NCBI GenBank assembly: GCA_012516935.1
Contig: JAAYVZ010000167.1
Location: 1-64,000, forward strand
Source of the DNA: Holophagae bacterium
GTDB taxonomy: Bacteria; Acidobacteriota; Thermoanaerobaculia; Thermoanaerobaculales; Thermoanaerobaculaceae
Length of the DNA stretch: 64,000 bases
Direction: 5' to 3'
How positions within the stretch are numbered: position 1 is the stretch's first letter; every line of letters starts with the position of its first letter. The notes under the pieces were generated by a model that had not been told where the DNA came from, searched no databases, and saw nothing but the letters and a program-made list of their open reading frames with translations. Position numbers and translations under genes: made by a program. This document shows positions 43,022 through 60,134 of this stretch, in pieces.

Positions 43022-44071
43022 TCAAGCGATGGTGACGTCCGGACAGAGGTAGACGTCCTGAATGGCGTGCAGCAGCGCCACGCCGTCGGCCATCGGCTTC
43101 TGGAACGCCTTGCGACCTGAAATGAGCCCCATACCACCAGCACGCTTATTGACTACGGCGGTGAGCACCGCCTGCGCGAGGTCGTTTGCGCCCGAGGCTC
43201 CGCCGGAGTTGATCATCCCCATGCGGCCCAGATAGCAGTTGGCGACCTGCCAGCGGGTCCACTCGATGGGGTTGTTCACGGCCAGCTTCTCGTACACCAG
43301 CTTCGACGTGTGGCCGAAGCCGACCGCGGTGTAGCCGCCCTGGCACTCGGGCTGTTTCTGCTTGATGATGTCGGCTTCGATGGTGACGCCGATGTGATTG
43401 GCCTGCCCTGTCAGGTCGGCGGACGTGTGGTAGTCCACACCGTCCTTCTTGAACGCCGAGTTCCGCGTGTAGCACCACAGCACCGTGAACATCCCCAGCT
43501 CGTGGGCGGCCTGGAACGCCTCCGAGACCTCCTGGATCTGCCGACGCGACTCCGCTGAGCCGAAGTAGATGGTGGCGCCGATACCGGCCGCCCCGAGGTT
43601 GAACGCCTGCTCGACCGTGCCGTACATCGTCTGGTCGTAGGTCAGCGGATAGGTCAGGGTCTCGTTGTGGTTGAGCTTGACGATGAAGGGGATCCGGTGG
43701 GCCCAGCGGCGGGCCACCGAGCCCAGCACCCCGAGTGTCGAGGCGACGGCGTTACACCCGCCCTCCATCGCCAGACGTATGATGTTCTCGCCGTCCATGT
43801 AGATCGGGTTGGGCGCGAACGAGGCTGCGGCCGAGTGCTCGATCCCCTGGTCGACCGGCAGGATCGACAGGTAGCCGCTCCCGGCAAGACGTCCGGTCCC
43901 GAGCATCCAGCTCAGTGCCTTGAGCACGTTCACGGGCCGATCCGAAGGGATGAAGATCCGGTCTACGAAGTCGGGGCCCGGCAGGTGCAGCATGCTCTTG
44001 GGGATCCCCTGGCAGGTGTAGTCGAGCAGCCCGACCTTGTCACCCAGATGCTGGCGGATGGCGTCGATCAT
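43022..44071 (-). CDS. fbaB: Class I fructose-bisphosphate aldolase (FbaB type)
   Basis: The 349-residue Schiff-base aldolase works in gluconeogenesis or glycolysis. Typical segments are [68 protein letters not shown] and [19 protein letters not shown], all close to E. coli FbaB, which is nearly the same length. ATG 44071 has a perfect GGGAGGT 4 nt upstream, and an extended -10 (TGGTACAAT) lies about 25 nt before. It clearly has its own expression signals even though the upstream RluA frame continues into it without a stop. Confidence 0.93.
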
Positions 44072-45064
44072 GGGCACCTCCCTATGGGTTCCGATTGTAC
44101 CAGCTCTCGTCCCCCAAAGGTCCGACCGGTAGCTCCCTCGTGGCGGCACGAAACGTCGCTGCACCATCGACACGTCTTTGACGGCCTCGCCAACCTCGAC
44201 GCGGGGCTGGTTACGCCTTCGGCTCGCGTCACCGCGAGCAGTCGCACCCCGAGAGCCGCCTGCGGCGGCGCGCCTCGCGCAAGGCGGGGGATCGGGCTTC
44301 GATTCGAGGTGAACGAGCCCGGCCTCCCGGGCGACGGCCGAGATGCGTCCCCCGAGCTCGGCGAGAGCTGCGGCGAAGTCGGTGGGCAGTGGCGCCGCAA
44401 GGACGAGCGGCGGCTGGTTGGCGAGTGCCGGAAGGGCTAGACGCCAGGCGTGCAGCAAGGTGTGTCCGGGTGCGAGGTGGCGCCGCAGCCGGGCGTCGCG
44501 CACGCCACGATGACGGGGGCCGCCGTAGAGATCGTCGCCGACAACCGGATGCCCGGCGTGCGCGAGATGAACCCGGAGCTGGTGGGTGCGGCCGGTATGC
44601 GGCACGAGCTCCACGAGCGAGACATGCGGTGCGGTTGCGAGCACCCGGTAGCTGCTCGAGGCGAGCTTACCGCCGTCAGCGACCCGCATGCGGCGGCGGT
44701 CGCGGACGTCCGGCGCCAGCGGCCAGGCGTACCCGCCAACTGCGGGTCGTGGTGAGCCCCAGACGAGCGCCAGATAGGTTTTCTCGATCCGACGATCGGC
44801 GAAGGCGGACACGAGGAGACGGTGATACTCCGCGTCGCGGGCCACGAGAACCAGGCCGGAGGTGCCGATGTCCAAACGATGCACGAGCCATAACGACTGT
44901 GCATCCACTCCCCATACCTTTCGGTCTTCTTGAGAGAGGATCTCGGTCAGCCTCGAGACTGCATCATCTGGCTTGTTGCGAGACGTTGCCAGGCTGAGAC
45001 CAGGTGGCTTGTTGAACGCCACCAGTCGGTCATCGGAGAAGATCAACGCAACAGGATACTCCAC
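43022..45064 (-). CDS. RluA-family rRNA pseudouridine synthase, reading through in frame into fbaB
   Basis: The first ~260 residues form a pseudouridine synthase: [23 protein letters not shown], the catalytic [57 protein letters not shown]. No stop follows. A linker of about 90 residues (Arg/Pro-rich, with the fbaB promoter and ribosome site inside it) joins directly to the aldolase start. The result would be a 680-residue fusion. A lost stop codon or a small indel in sequence or assembly is the simplest reading; a true fusion protein is possible. Start is GTG 45064 or TTG 45082; neither has a strong ribosome site. Confidence 0.7.
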
Positions 45065-45103
45065 GGTGGAAGCTTGCCACAAGTTTTCGTCGTGCTCATC
45101 CTC

Positions 45104-45131
45104 TTGACAACGCGAATAAGAGGTTTACATT
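45104..45131 (+). promoter_or_regulatory. Strong promoter of the kamA cluster
   Basis: TTGACA (45104-45109), a 16-nt spacer and TACATT (45126-45131). A GTG start of a 62-codon frame lies 7 nt after the -10, while kamA starts about 320 nt further on. Confidence 0.65.
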
Positions 45132-45138
45132 GTGCGGC

Positions 45139-45327
45139 GTGGAGACCGATACCTCGCCAGACCACCCCCCAAGTATTTCGGTGCGCGTGACTTCCTGCCA
45201 CGCGTGCCGGCCGGGTGAGGCATCCCTGTCAATCGCCAACGTGCCTTTTCCCCCTGCGCGGGTCTCCGCGCGGGTGCATCTCACCTCCTGCTTGTGGCCC
45301 CGTGCCGCCGTGAAGCCCCAGGGATAA
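45139..45327 (+). CDS. Possible leaderless leader ORF of 62 residues upstream of kamA
   Basis: GTG 45139 (VETDTSPDHPPSISVRV) sits 7 nt after TACATT, the window's leaderless spacing, and runs to TAA 45325. The product has three cysteines, including SCHACRPGEA, and many Pro/Arg/Ser. I recognise no family. It could be a regulatory leader peptide, a small precursor peptide for the downstream ligases, or simply a chance frame across a structured RNA leader, since hairpins such as GCGCGG-GTCT-CCGCGC lie inside it. Confidence 0.3.
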   Translation: METDTSPDHPPSISVRVTSCHACRPGEASLSIANVPFPPARVSARVHLTSCLWPRAAVKPQG

Positions 45328-45459
45328 CGACGCGATGCGCATGGAGCCCCCCGGGGTGAAACGTCCGGTGCTGACCGGGCACGGTGTCCGGCCAGCGTTC
45401 AGCCGCAGGCTTTTCGCCGCTGCAAAACCTGAATCCTCCCCGTGTGGAGGTCGGAGACC
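45328..45459 (+). promoter_or_regulatory. Structured kamA leader with a hairpin masking the ribosome site
   Basis: The leader contains CCGGGCA-CGG-TGTCCGG (around 45380-45396) and, just before the start, CCTCC (45435-45439) that can pair with GGAGG (45446-45450). This would hide the Shine-Dalgarno of kamA. I could not match it to lysine, cobalamin, SAM or glycine riboswitches. It may be an unassigned regulatory RNA or a translation-coupled leader. Confidence 0.4.
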
Positions 45460-46620
45460 ATGAAAGAGACCACTGCACCAGCCGAACCACTGATACCTGG
45501 CGCGCGGCGCCTCGACATCTGCCGGATTCTCGGCGAGTCGTACGACCCCGCGCGCTGGAATGACTGGCACTGGCAGATGCGCCACCGCCTCAGCCGGCCC
45601 GAGCAGCTCGAGCAGCTCCTCCAGCTCATACCGGGAGAGCGCCGGGGCCTAGCGCTTTGTCAGGGCAAGCTTGCCGTTGCCGTTACGCCGTACCTCGCCG
45701 AGCTGCTCGACCCGCTCGACTCGTCATGTCCGCTGCGCATGCAGGTCGTGCCGCGCGAGGAGGAGGCGCTGGTGGCAGCCACCGACATGGTCGACCCGTG
45801 CGGTGAGGAGCACGACAGCGTGGTTCCTGGCCTGGTCCACCGCTACCCTGACCGCGTGCTGCTGCTGGCCATCGACACCTGTGCCGCGTACTGCCGGTAC
45901 TGCACGCGCTCACGTCTGGTCGCCCACGGTCGGCTCGGCGGGTTGGGGCAGCGTATCGATGCCATCATCGCCTATCTCGAGGCGCATACCGAGGTGCGGG
46001 ATGTCCTTATTTCCGGCGGCGATCCGTTGCTCTTCTCGGACGAGAAGCTCGACGAGCTGTTGGGACGGATCCGTGCTGTCCCGCACGTGGAGATGGTGCG
46101 GCTCGGTAGTCGCGTGGTGTCGTTCCTGCCGCAGCGCATCACACCTTCGCTGGTCACGGTGCTGCGCCAGCACCGAGTGTGGCTCTCGCTGCACTTCTCC
46201 CATGCCGCCGAGCTCACGCCGGAGGTCGCCCAGGCGTGCGACCTGCTCGCCGACGGTGGGATTCCGCTGGGCAGCCAGACCGTGCTGCTGCGCGGGATCA
46301 ACGACTCGGTGACGGAGCTGCGGGCGCTTTTTCACGGGCTGCTGAAGCTCCGCGTGCGCCCGTACTACCTCTACCAGTGCGACCCGGTGGTCGGGACGAG
46401 TCACCTACGTACGACGGTGGCCAAGGGGCTCGAGCTGGTTGCCGGCCTGCGGGGTCACACCAGCGGCTATGCCGTGCCCGCCTACGTGATCGACGCGCCT
46501 GGAGGGGGCGGCAAGGTGCCGATCCACCCCGAGACCGTGGTCGGCTACGAGAACGGTACGCTGCTGCTCCGCAACTGGGAAGGCGGGGTGTACACCTACC
46601 GTGATCCTGTGAACGTGTAG
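45460..46620 (+). CDS. kamA: Lysine 2,3-aminomutase (KamA family radical SAM enzyme)
   Basis: KamA turns L-lysine into L-beta-lysine using SAM, a 4Fe-4S cluster and PLP. In this 386-residue protein the cluster motif is C141, C145, C148 (CAAYCRYC). The PLP lysine is K352 in GGGGKVPIHPE. The two aspartates that hold the lysine side-chain amine in the Clostridium enzyme are both conserved (D308 in YQCDPV and D345 in VIDAPGG), so lysine is the likely substrate. It is longer than EpmB and has no EpmA neighbour. ATG 45460 follows GGAGG/GGAG. It is followed by two ATP-grasp ligases and a GNAT acetyltransferase, suggesting that beta-lysine is built into a larger product. Confidence 0.9.
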   Translation: MKETTAPAEPLIPGARRLDICRILGESYDPARWNDWHWQMRHRLSRPEQLEQLLQLIPGERRGLALCQGKLAVAVTPYLAELLDPLDSSCPLRMQVVPREEEALVAATDMVDPCGEEHDSVVPGLVHRYPDRVLLLAIDTCAAYCRYCTRSRLVAHGRLGGLGQRIDAIIAYLEAHTEVRDVLISGGDPLLFSDEKLDELLGRIRAVPHVEMVRLGSRVVSFLPQRITPSLVTVLRQHRVWLSLHFSHAAELTPEVAQACDLLADGGIPLGSQTVLLRGINDSVTELRALFHGLLKLRVRPYYLYQCDPVVGTSHLRTTVAKGLELVAGLRGHTSGYAVPAYVIDAPGGGGKVPIHPETVVGYENGTLLLRNWEGGVYTYRDPVNV

Positions 46621-46631
46621 GATCGTTGGGC

Positions 46632-46685
46632 ATGTCGTCTCCGCTCGGACTTCGACCACGTTCTGGCCGCGAGGCGGGAGCTTGA
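46632..46685 (+). CDS. Possible 17-residue ORF between kamA and the first ligase
   Basis: ATG 46632 (MSSPLGLRPRSGREAGA) is 8 nt after TAGGAT, which includes the kamA stop. Its TGA ends 2 nt before the ligase GTG, and the ligase ribosome site GGGAG lies inside its last codons. The arrangement would couple translation. Length alone gives little support. Confidence 0.2.
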   Translation: MSSPLGLRPRSGREAGA

Positions 46686-46687
46686 CC

Positions 46688-47683
46688 GTGCGGGTAGGAC
46701 TGACGTACGACCTCCGGGACGACTACCTGGCGCTCGGCTACTCGGCGGAGGAGACGGCGGAGTTCGACCGCGCCGAGACGATCGACGTCATCGCAGAGAC
46801 ACTCCGCTCGCTCGGCTACGAGGTCGATCGGATCGGGCATGCGCGAGCCTTGATGGCGCGCCTGCTGGCCGGAGACCGGTGGGACCTGGTGTTCAACGTG
46901 GCGGAAGGGCTGCACGGCTACGGCCGCGAGGCGCTGGTGCCGGCGTTGCTGGACGCCTATCAGATCCCATACACCTTCTCGGACCCGCTGGTGCTCGCCG
47001 TGACGCTCCACAAGGCGGCGTGCAAGCGCCTGGTCCGCGACCTCGGTGTGGCCACCCCGGCGTTCGCAGTCGTGGAGTCGGAGTCCGACCTGTGGGCCGT
47101 CGACCTCCCGTTTCCGCTGTTCGCAAAGCCGCTGGCGGAGGGCACCTCGAAGGGGATCTCGTCGGCCTCACGCTTGGTCGACCGGCCGGGTCTCGAGGGC
47201 CGCTGCCGCGAGCTACTCGCGGCCTTCGGGCAGCCGGTGCTGGTCGAGACCTACCTGCCTGGCCGCGAAGTGACGGTGGGCGTGCTCGGCACCGGGCCAC
47301 GGGCGCGAGTCCTCGCGGTCATGGAAGTGCTGCTCCGGGAAGCGGCCGAGGCCGGCGTGTACTCGCTGCACAACAAGGAGCACTACGAGCGGCTGGTCGA
47401 CTACCGGCTGGTCCCGCTCGACTCCGCTCTCGGGAGCGAGGCCGCCGAGATGAGCCTGCGCGTCTGGCGGGGGCTCGGCTGCCGGGACGGCGGGCGCGTC
47501 GACCTGCGGCAGGGGCCGGACGGACGGCTGCAGTTCATCGAGGTGAACCCCCTCGCCGGCCTCCATTACGAGCACTCGGACCTGCCCATCATGGCGCGCC
47601 TGTCCGGGATGCGCTTCGACGAGCTTGTGGCCGCCGTCATGGGCTCCGCGTCGGAGCGGCTCCGCGCGGCAGGAAAGGAGTAG
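46688..47683 (+). CDS. D-Ala-D-Ala ligase-like ATP-grasp enzyme 1
   Basis: The 331-residue protein has the ATP-grasp layout of carboxylate-amine ligases: N-terminal VRVGLTYDLRDDY..., LVFNVAEGLHGYGREALVPALLDAYQIPYTFSDPLVLAVTLHKAACKRLV, FPLFAKPLAEGTSKGISSAS (ATP lysine and glycine-rich loop), VETYLPGREVTVGVLGTG, and the metal site DLRQGPDGRLQFIEVNPLAGLHYEHSDLPIMARLSG. It should activate an acid by phosphorylation and join it to an amine; neither substrate is known. GTG 46688 has GGGAG 7 nt upstream; TTG 46682 is an alternative. The next gene starts 3 nt after the stop. Confidence 0.82.
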   Translation: MRVGLTYDLRDDYLALGYSAEETAEFDRAETIDVIAETLRSLGYEVDRIGHARALMARLLAGDRWDLVFNVAEGLHGYGREALVPALLDAYQIPYTFSDPLVLAVTLHKAACKRLVRDLGVATPAFAVVESESDLWAVDLPFPLFAKPLAEGTSKGISSASRLVDRPGLEGRCRELLAAFGQPVLVETYLPGREVTVGVLGTGPRARVLAVMEVLLREAAEAGVYSLHNKEHYERLVDYRLVPLDSALGSEAAEMSLRVWRGLGCRDGGRVDLRQGPDGRLQFIEVNPLAGLHYEHSDLPIMARLSGMRFDELVAAVMGSASERLRAAGKE

Positions 47684-47686
47684 GCG

Positions 47687-48748
47687 ATGGCGGTCGAGCG
47701 CGCGTGGCCCGAGTGGCTCGCACACCGGCGGACTCGTCGGGTCGCCATTGCCCACACGTTCATCACCTCCACCTCCCGACCCGACGACCAGGACACTCTC
47801 GAGGAAATCGAGACGGTGGCCGCCGCGCTTGGCGAGCTCGGCTTCGACCCCGAGCCGGTACCGTTCACCCTCGACCTCCACGCGTTCATCGCGGCGCTCC
47901 GGGACCTCGAGCCGGCGTTCGTCTTCAACCTCGTGGAAGGGGTCGACGGCACGGGCCGGCTCATCCACATGGCACCGGCGCTCTGCGAGCATCTCGGCCT
48001 CGCCTGCACGGGTGCGCCCGCCTCGGCGATCCTGGTCACGACATCGAAGCTCGAGACCAAGCGGCAACTCAAGGTTGCGGGGCTGCCGACGGCCCCCTGG
48101 GCCACCCCAGCACGCCTCGCGGCCGGGAGAGTCGGGTTTCCGGGGCCGTACATCCTCAAGCCGGTGTGGGAGGACGCGTCGGTGGGTATCGACCACGACG
48201 GTGTCTGCGACAGCCGGGCGCGCCTCGTGGAGCTGTGGCGCGAGCGGACGCGGGGTTCGGGCGGCGAGTTCTTCGCGGAACGCTACATCGACGGACGGGA
48301 GATCAACCAGGCGCTGCTCGCTGGTCCTCGCGGCCCGCAGGCGCTGCCGACGGCGGAGATCGACTTCCTCAACTGGGAGGAGGGTGCCCCCCGTATTGTC
48401 GGTTGGCGTGCGAAGTGGGACGAGGACGCACCGGAGTTCGAACGCACCCGGCGTCGTTTCTTACGTGGCGGTAGCGACGTCGGGCTCCGGCGGCGGGTCA
48501 AAGCGCTGGCGCGACGCTGCTGGCACTTGTTCGGCCTCCATGGCTACGCACGGGTCGACCTGAGGGTCGACCGGAGCGGACGGCCGTATATCCTGGAGGT
48601 CAACGCCAACCCCTGCGTCTCGCCGGATGCCGGGTTCCTGGCTGCCACGCGAGAGCTCGGGATGCAGCCCAATGACGTCGTGGCTCGCATCATCTGCGAC
48701 TGCCCTCCGCCTGCCGCTCCCCTCGCCGGCAGCCAATACCACCACTGA
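47687..48748 (+). CDS. D-Ala-D-Ala ligase-like ATP-grasp enzyme 2
   Basis: This 353-residue ATP-grasp protein is only distantly similar to its neighbour. Motifs: RRVAIAHTFITSTSRPDDQDTLEEIETVAAALGELG, AFVFNLVEGVDGTGRLIHMAPALCEHLGLACTGAPASAILVTTSKLETKRQL, PYILKPVWEDASVGIDHDGVC, EFFAERYIDGREINQALLAG, and the metal site YARVDLRVDRSGRPYILEVNANPCVSPDAGFLAA. ATG 47687 directly follows the previous stop. The tail after residue ~335 has CDCPP and ends in HH. Two unlike ligases in a row suggest two successive amide-bond steps, for example on beta-lysine from KamA (inference). Confidence 0.82.
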   Translation: MAVERAWPEWLAHRRTRRVAIAHTFITSTSRPDDQDTLEEIETVAAALGELGFDPEPVPFTLDLHAFIAALRDLEPAFVFNLVEGVDGTGRLIHMAPALCEHLGLACTGAPASAILVTTSKLETKRQLKVAGLPTAPWATPARLAAGRVGFPGPYILKPVWEDASVGIDHDGVCDSRARLVELWRERTRGSGGEFFAERYIDGREINQALLAGPRGPQALPTAEIDFLNWEEGAPRIVGWRAKWDEDAPEFERTRRRFLRGGSDVGLRRRVKALARRCWHLFGLHGYARVDLRVDRSGRPYILEVNANPCVSPDAGFLAATRELGMQPNDVVARIICDCPPPAAPLAGSQYHH

Positions 48749-48760
48749 TCCGGAGCCCCC

Positions 48761-49255
48761 ATGGACGACCTGTTGTTTCGCACCGCGGTGAAGCCCTCCG
48801 ACCCGGACGCCGTCCGGCGCATCGTGGAGTCCACCGGGTTTTTCTACCCCTACGAGGTGGATGTCGCCGTCGAGCTGGTCGACGCGCACCTCGCAGAGGG
48901 CGAAGCCTCGGGCTACCACTTCGTGTTCGCCGAGCTCGGCGGCGAAACGGTGGGGTACGGGTGCGTCGGGCCGATTGCCTGCACGCAGTCGAGCTTCGAC
49001 TTCTTTTGGATCGCAGTGCACTCGCGCTGTCGAGGTCGGGGAGTGGGACGCCACCTGGTCGAGGCGTGCGAGGCCCGCATGCGCCAGCTCGGCGCCTCGC
49101 GCGTGTACGTCGAGACGTCGGGGCGGGAGCAGTACGAGCCGACCAGGCGCTTCTACCTCGCCTGCGGCTATCAAGAGGTCGCGGTGTTTCCGGACTACTA
49201 CGCCCCCGGTGACGCCAAGGTCGTCTACCTCAAGGTGCTCGGGCCGGCGATCTAG
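48761..49255 (+). CDS. GNAT family N-acetyltransferase
   Basis: The 164-residue protein has the acetyl-CoA loop CRGRGVGRHLVEACEARMRQLG and the beta-strand/helix end region YVETSGREQYEPTRRFYLACGYQEVAVFPDYYAPGDAKVVYLKVL typical of GNATs. It is the last gene of the kamA cluster, 12 nt after ATP-grasp 2. A beta-lysine N6-acetyltransferase (AblB) would be larger, so this one may instead acetylate the ligase product or give self-protection. ATG 48761 is the first start; the ribosome site CCGGAGCC is modest. Confidence 0.85.
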   Translation: MDDLLFRTAVKPSDPDAVRRIVESTGFFYPYEVDVAVELVDAHLAEGEASGYHFVFAELGGETVGYGCVGPIACTQSSFDFFWIAVHSRCRGRGVGRHLVEACEARMRQLGASRVYVETSGREQYEPTRRFYLACGYQEVAVFPDYYAPGDAKVVYLKVLGPAI

Positions 49256-59632: not shown

Positions 59633-59710
<78 letters not shown>

Positions 59711-59749: not shown

Positions 59750-60134
59750 GGGGTGCGCCCAGCATGATCATCGACTACGGGTGGGGGTCCCGGAGGGAGG
59801 AGGTTGCACCGACCTGAGCGAAGCGCAAGGGCAGCCAAGCGAGGTGCTGTCTGGAGCAAGCGCGGAGCGAAAGGAGCGGGCCGACGAACAGAAACCGGAT
59901 ACGAGGCGGCGCCGACCGGGGCGAGTGGGCCCATGACCACGAAGCTCCAGCAACCAAAGGGCGGCGGCATCGATCCGGCGGTCGTGCTCCGAACGCCGAT
60001 GGTCGTAACCGAGGGGAGATCTCGCCTCATGTCTGAAAGGGCGACGCTCGCTCGGGAACGTGGCGCAACCCAGCGCCCTGACCTCGACCTTCCGAACCGC
60101 CGGATGCGGACCCGCATGGCCGGTGGTGTGGGAG
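59750..60134. other. Gene-poor stretch after the tRNA
   Basis: No convincing gene is seen. Frames exist on both strands, but the minus-strand one contains the well-known spurious antisense-of-tRNA peptide (DLNLRPLGYEPNELPD). Short repeats of GAGCGAA/GGAGCGA occur around 59816-59880. Confidence 0.4.

Follow-up and report, generated by a model that had tools for sequence, protein, structure and literature searches.

Upstream of an operon encoding a lysine 2,3-aminomutase family enzyme (kamA), two ATP-grasp ligases and a GNAT acetyltransferase, we identified a leaderless 62-codon frame, here termed ORF1, whose conserved first part carries two consecutive prolines. With moderate confidence, we read ORF1 as a cis-acting leader peptide whose Pro-Pro-Ser (PPS) pause would control expression of the kamA–ligase–ligase–GNAT operon, the motif suggesting control by the ease with which ribosomes pass over the two prolines. 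In KamA proteins of other phyla, a similar motif resides near the N-terminus of the enzyme itself. As judged from sequence, it would be a leader peptide designed around a predicted diproline pause, of which the enzyme carries a fused counterpart in those relatives.

The kamA leader in the window and across its class

The window, i.e. the entire 64,000-nucleotide stretch of acidobacterial DNA analysed here, contains on its forward strand a promoter (45104–45131) recognized from its sequence, comprising TTGACA (45104–45109), a 16-nt spacer and TACATT (45126–45131), just as the initial annotation had it. ORF1 (45139–45327, +) begins with a GTG at 45139, 7 nt downstream of the –10 hexamer, and terminates with TAA (45325–45327); its codons 10–12 (CCC CCA AGT; 45166–45174, +) encode the PPS motif, the putative pause site. 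In a second genome of the same genus (G001), the 345-nt leader aligned without gaps at 71% identity, with ATG replacing GTG and the stop codon at the identical position. A single lysine codon is found among the 62 of ORF1, rather than the run of lysine codons of an amino-acid attenuator. A match to the leader DNA in G003 proved to be antisense within a long coding frame and was dismissed as chance.

Downstream, kamA (45460–46620, +) scored above the cut-off of TIGR00238 and matched PDB entry 2a5h (E = 3.6e-125), yet reached 423.4 bits with the model for the lysine 2,3-aminomutase AblA (TIGR03820), below its cut-off of 525.4. It is followed by ligase 1 (46682–47683, +; PF07478, D-Ala-D-Ala ligase fold), ligase 2 (47687–48748, +; PF07478) and, as the fourth gene of the operon, a GNAT acetyltransferase (48761–49255, +; PF00583). 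Many relatives likewise possess ligase 1 downstream of kamA and ligase 2 downstream of ligase 1, and a GNAT gene follows ligase 2 at many loci of other phyla; presence of the operon was read by eye and goes unseen where a contig stops short. Two variants of the operon stood out. In a member of the Desulfobacteraceae (L023, 10533–11846), a single open frame combines the GNAT domain with one of the histone-deacetylase family, which hints at a chemistry of acetylated, polyamine-like compounds, and in a planctomycete operon (L014, 7124–7609) a putative metal-chelating protein with a CxxCxxCC motif is encoded between kamA and ligase 1.

Between ORF1 and kamA lies a further frame, overlooked in the initial annotation. 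This 42-codon ORF2 (45335–45463, +) starts 7 nt past the ORF1 stop codon, overlaps the kamA start in an ATGA and encodes Glu-Pro-Pro-Gly at codons 4–7 (45344–45355). An ATG 6–13 nt past the ORF1 stop was present in 19 of the 20 class leaders described below, with ORF2 either ending near the kamA start or being in frame with kamA. The EPPG opening is shared by the window's genus and family f17 (MRMEPPG, MLDEPPG, MRTEPPG and MNTEPPG; window, L116, L129, L200 and L202), and genus g6 and family f2 possess only CCC-GGG-like nucleotides at this position. ORF2 also gave weak matches (E up to 1) in 138 of 148 genomes, which we ascribe to chance except in G000 and G001. The initial annotation had noted a CCTCC able to pair with the GGAGG of kamA. 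The nearest such pair forms a small local hairpin over the kamA Shine-Dalgarno sequence (45435–45450, +; CCTCC at 45435–45439, GGAGG at 45446–45450), which is retained in G001 and genus g6 and was not seen by eye in family f2.

Thirty kamA loci were fetched from the window's class (L115–L144), and 22 of these (L115–L135 and L140) constitute the leader study. At 20 of the 22, a promoter precedes a leaderless frame in which a PPS comes early, which establishes the GTG frame of the initial annotation as real. These 20 "split" leaders were chosen by an in-frame early CCNCC-AGY after a start codon together with an upstream TTGAC, so that motif and TTGAC, as selection criteria, are not independent evidence. 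Features outside the selection were nonetheless uniform: the full TTGACA and a 16-nt spacer to a TANNNT hexamer occurred in all 20, the start codon was located 6–17 nt past the –10 hexamer (6–10 nt in 18), the PPS started at codon 9–11 in every case, and ORF1 spanned 56–62 codons in 18 leaders (39 in L133, 95 in L126). The residue preceding Pro-Pro was Glu in four of the 20 and Gln, His, Arg or Lys in the rest. An additional promoter directly before kamA, named by the initial annotation as a finding that would speak against a long leader, was not apparent, as 19 of the 20 leaders, including that of the window, lacked any TTGAC[AT] from around ORF1 codon 20 to kamA; the sole exception, L126, contained two.

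As for the other two loci, L135 (the same locus as L012) has the motif fused into KamA and no split leader, and L140 (genome G007) has kept the motif with the ORF1 start codon changed. In G007 (L140, G007:C28; L166) the –35 element is changed as well, the kamA match is partial and that of ligase 2 contains an internal stop; the operon seems to be decaying jointly with its leader. Specificity was assessed with a pattern (promoter, start codon and CCNCCVAGT) built from the 20 split leaders. Among 145 genomes of the class it matched in 20, once each and invariably at kamA (reversed control: 0), and among 396 genomes drawn from the phylum it matched five times, all in class members. As matches at kamA are expected, the result lies in the absence of other sites: the leader is not a general one in this group. 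Two further split leaders, in G132 and G134 (L200 and L202; ORF1 of 66 codons), were found later by this pattern and count solely in the pattern scan and in the comparison of ORF1 lengths and fused pairs.

Elsewhere in the window, a 686-codon frame (43022–45082, –) matched RNA pseudouridine synthase with its N-terminal and DeoC/LacD aldolase with its C-terminal part, representing either an unusual fusion or a pair of genes with no stop codon between them, and the Rfam group-II-D1D4-3 intron RNA (91 bits) was detected at 59833–60003 (+) and 59633–59706 (+), ~130 nt downstream of a tRNA gene.

A diproline motif inside KamA of other phyla

KamA relatives were taken as the best 80 of at least 585 confirmed candidates. 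Among the matches listed, KamA of other phyla mostly possessed an N-terminal extension ahead of the KamA fold and, 7 to 31 codons past the best-judged start, often an acidic stretch followed by Pro-Pro and mostly Ser, Gly or Asp, i.e. a motif of the form [DE]PP[SGD] that resembles the PPS segment of ORF1. Using one start rule throughout, [DE]PP[GSDTANEQPW] occurred within the first 45 residues at 42 of these best 80 KamA loci vs. two of 421 other ORFs taken from those loci, and within the first 150 residues at 46 of 80 vs. eight of 421. KamA extensions of at least 20 residues harbored the motif at 46 of 68 listed loci (500 shuffles: mean 4.1, maximum 11), a count that takes in the whole extension, as opposed to 45 residues of the control ORFs, and for which the 42 of 80 is the recount under a single rule. 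Outside cyanobacteria, 36 of 39 listed loci bearing the operon had [DE]PP, the remainder being KPP (L016) or lacking it (L029, L066).

In a tree of 104 KamA proteins (L010, L115, L135, L138 and L140 omitted by choice, L081 as too short), the split form occupied 19 rows with two changes (shuffled mean 17.9) and the fused form 48 rows with eight changes (shuffled mean 34.7). The main fused clade carried the motif in 41 of 43 rows, with labels from eight phyla. The fused form is also present in the window's own order, in G023 (L012/L135). No diproline motif was found in seven cyanobacterial operons, whose KamA (six of them in the tree) fall inside the split clade. Among the matches listed, these cyanobacteria (L005–L011) encode the nearest KamA outside the class (69–73% identity, ligase downstream); horizontal transfer is probable. 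Six Verrucomicrobia KamA with no operon in reach (L015, L021, L022, L031, L065 and L078) have [DE]PP near the N-terminus, the first proline being CCG in five of the six; they count in the 46 of 68, in the 42 of 80 and in the 50 extensions used below, the last of which also include L135, and are not part of the 43 fused loci of the operon clade. Since motif, position and operon context agree, ORF1 and the tail of KamA are most simply viewed as one element in two arrangements; they may well descend from a common ancestor, although the motif is too short to prove it.

Selection, codon choice and rival explanations

Comparison of related leaders located the constraint on ORF1. Ratios of pN/pS for codons 1–17, the remainder of ORF1 and kamA were 0.28, 0.73 and 0.14 (300 kamA codons) in genus g6 (eight leaders), 0.33, 0.81 and 0.18 in the window's genus g1 (two leaders), and 0.55, 1.03 and 0.29 in family f2 (four leaders, far apart). 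Protein-level selection on ORF1 is thus limited to codons 1–17, the segment that is coding in the sense of being conserved as protein, and the remainder drifts nearly neutrally. The ORF2 peptide, with ratios from 0.69 to 1.31, is nearly neutral. Fused genes follow a comparable pattern, since in eight hand-chosen pairs the 10 motif codons had a pN/pS of 0.27, the other extension 0.58 and the KamA core 0.17.

Codon usage at the two prolines is biased at the first position. Across the 43 listed fused loci of the operon clade, the first proline is encoded by CCT in 38, CCC in four and CCG in one, with CCT making up 10.9% of proline codons in the KamA cores; the rows are related, and a binomial value for this bias is therefore no true probability. 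The second proline is far more evenly encoded (CCG 15, CCA 13, CCC 11, CCT 4). Glu or Asp, encoded by GAR or GAC, precedes Pro-Pro in 42 of the 43, and Ser (16), Gly (14) or Asp (6) most often follows. Split leaders share the bias, with CCT in 16, CCC in three and CCG in one, against 5.1% CCT in their cores. CCC or CCU before C forms slow, slip-prone proline pairs that genomes avoid (PMC8129111). The same source reports that in E. coli CCU is the faster of the two and that codon choice matters little for strong pausers (PMC8129111); given this order, the dominance of CCT over CCC is a point against a codon-slowed pause. Frameshifting (+1) at CCY-C was considered and rejected, as the +1 frame yields no common product: its stop comes after six codons in nine split leaders, after 9 to 133 in the remaining 11, and after 3 to 216 in the 43 listed fused loci.

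Could the conserved entity be RNA rather than peptide? We judge it quite improbable that CCTCC-RAGT acts as a nucleotide element, pairing with a Shine-Dalgarno sequence or binding a protein. CCT-CC is retained far above the expectation from codon usage, and the serine is AGT in 19 of the 20 split leaders, but the wobble base of the second proline is free, and the window, G001 and L131 read CCCCC and L128 CCGCC with no matching change in the GGAGG before kamA. Pairing of CCTCC with a Shine-Dalgarno sequence was in fact dropped as a candidate, a predicted pairing of motif and upstream Shine-Dalgarno above 0.3 being obtained for only four of 42 fused genes. Control of kamA by a structured RNA such as a new riboswitch, one of the options raised in the initial annotation, appears very unlikely, even though genus g6 leaders are highly conserved as nucleotides (88% mean column identity), g6 ORF1 holds a GCGGCCGC stem before a T-run, and most leaders show by eye a small CCC-GGG hairpin past the ORF2 ATG. 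Folding of the leader did not exceed that of shuffles (z = –0.91; 21 of 100 folded equally well), and in nine g6 leaders RNAalifold found double changes in just three of 88 predicted pairs, so the hairpins invoked to call the leader "structured" amount to no more than chance. Around ORF2, RNAalifold returned no consensus pair over 18 leaders, the alignment being poor. The Rfam scan of the window at gathering threshold gave no match within the leader, and scans of 16 relatives at E up to 1 returned a single sub-threshold miRNA match. Taken together, low pN/pS in codons 1–17, no excess folding and a silent Rfam identify the first part of the peptide as the conserved entity.

A conserved peptide might also work in trans, as a small protein split off from the KamA tail that docks something onto the operon enzymes via its acidic Pro-Pro-Ser. 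The motif does sit inside the KamA chain in other phyla, codons 1–17 are under purifying selection, and, with G132 and G134 added, 20 of the 22 split leaders have an ORF1 of 56–66 codons, but ORF1 drifts almost freely past codon 17 (pN/pS 0.73–1.03), so that little is left able to bind KamA, its length ranges from 39 to 95 codons, and docking leaves the first-proline CCT at 38 of 43 listed fused loci unexplained; we hold a role in trans to be rather unlikely. That ORF1 supplies a precursor for processing by the two ligases is scarcely credible, although a small frame does lie beside genes for a radical SAM enzyme and a pair of ATP-grasp ligases: no conserved core of the kind expected of a RiPP exists past codon 17, where ORF1 is near-neutral, and in other phyla the motif belongs to the KamA polypeptide. 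Of the three readings proposed in the initial annotation, the regulatory peptide is hence supported by codons 1–17, conserved as protein and containing the Pro-Pro-Ser, and neither the regulatory RNA nor the ligase precursor finds support. Feedback through beta-lysylated EF-P, in which low beta-lysine would leave EF-P unmodified, ribosomes would stall at PPS and kamA would respond, has its appeal, KamA being in the same superfamily as EpmB (lysine 2,3-aminomutase). Two family f2 genomes, G021 and G025, indeed combine an EpmA above cut-off with an EF-P of PGKG type, and a gene of G025 was taken by eye for EpmB. These were the only two of 13 genomes searched to have EpmA above cut-off, however, with none in the seven searched from the window's family f1. 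There, the best TIGR00462 scores were 237–248 bits vs. a cut-off of 286.9, in frames of 494–599 aa that, going by their length, we take to be lysyl-tRNA synthetases, and the canonical EF-P loop reads PGNWRG in G000 and G001, devoid of the lysine of the PGKG type. On the EpmA and loop evidence, this feedback is unlikely in the window's family and was given up for f1; as leaders of the same kind occur in both f1 and f2, it is not their general purpose, and overall we deem it highly improbable. Family f1 does encode an EfpL-like second EF-P with a TPSARGAS loop (G000, G003 and G006; SPTARGAAT in E. coli EfpL, PMC11611912). EF-P and EfpL-like loci of this family were recorded at G000:C139 (L195), G000:C17 (L194), L192, L196 and L197.

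A candidate mechanism and its known counterparts

In the cis-acting pause that we favour, a 70S ribosome would start on the leaderless GTG or ATG of ORF1 and, at codons 10–12, meet a programmed Pro-Pro-Ser pause, and the time spent there would set the expression level of the kamA–ligase–ligase–GNAT operon. Motif and codons point to ribosome pausing at PPS, which may in turn act on kamA; relief would presumably come from EF-P or its paralog EfpL. Over the ~300 nt that follow, pausing could break the coupling between ribosome and RNA polymerase, with Rho, or an intrinsic terminator in some lineages, acting there, and/or it could govern a relay from ORF1 via ORF2 to kamA by reinitiation, the kamA Shine-Dalgarno sequence being hidden in its hairpin. 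In the fused relatives, the same pause would fall early in kamA itself, rendering the relay unneeded. In E. coli lacking EF-P, polyproline stalls have been reported to uncouple transcription and to permit Rho-dependent or intrinsic termination (PMC5021804). A point against the proposed pause is that most PPX motifs are not strong stallers in E. coli, 2.8% having exceeded a strict cut-off in the absence of EF-P (PMC4140641).

A C>G-rich stretch, uncovered as the ribosome falls behind, would be expected of a Rho-dependent attenuator. C exceeds G after the PPS in all 20 split leaders, and the skew surpasses that of the KamA core in 16 of them, as does that of the fused extensions in 44 of 50 listed loci. 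The effect is modest (mean 0.12 in split and 0.18 in fused forms vs. 0.05 in the KamA core). In a first terminator scan, T-runs preceded by a stem turned up in genus g6, L126 and L127. Intrinsic terminators as a general feature were not borne out by a strict scan with control regions, which called them in seven of 20 split leaders and 12 of 49 listed fused loci compared with six of 49 control regions, with hairpins at scattered positions and partly inside the KamA core.

Several known systems share parts of this design. The CruR uORF of Bordetella pertussis (bp2923-bfrG-bp2921) is, like ORF1, an upstream frame with a conserved diproline motif (RAPP, an arrest motif in CruR), is likewise associated with a C>G-rich stretch and controls the downstream genes by Rho; unlike ORF1, it encodes a DUF2946 protein that has a signal peptide and binds copper through a CXXC, and its source describes an EF-P knockout as being of no effect (PMC9426467). 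Salmonella MgtL and MgtP match the proposal in that the rate of translation of a proline-rich leader frame sets transcription of the operon, with an effect of EF-P, but they act on Mg transport and virulence genes through alternative stems and a Rho site (PMC5021804, PMC6460261); no such alternative stems were conserved in the kamA leaders. In CadC, consecutive prolines with chosen slow codons set the amount of protein, as proposed here, although they form a triproline within the coding region of a sensor and act on CadC itself (PMC8129111). In E. coli, targets of EF-P and EfpL (YeiP) are marked by a codon starting with G ahead of Pro-Pro (PMC11611912). This G is shared by 42 of 43 listed fused motifs, and family f1 has the EfpL-like paralog, whereas the corresponding codon starts with C or A in 16 of the 20 split leaders. 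In titles and abstract openings, including few subscription papers, we found no report of such a leader or of a KamA diproline motif.

Diproline-based control by polyamines operates in eukaryotes, and an analogous role can be envisaged here, in which the diproline pause senses the polyamine-like polycation that the operon would derive from beta-lysine, feeding back on its synthesis. The polycation would do so by altering ribosome speed across the acidic residue and the two prolines. Though unlikely, such a sensor would be the bacterial parallel to the eukaryotic systems and, if true, old enough to have resided in KamA tails of eight phyla before becoming detached as a leaderless leader peptide.

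Diproline pauses have mostly been studied as a burden that EF-P relieves. Here, a diproline motif with a biased first codon has been kept in eight phyla at the start of the same operon, and it is also found where a separate leader peptide carries it. Its split and fused forms provide a natural experiment for telling action in cis from a function of the peptide within the protein, and the kamA leader may serve to test whether EF-P or EfpL exerts control in non-model species.
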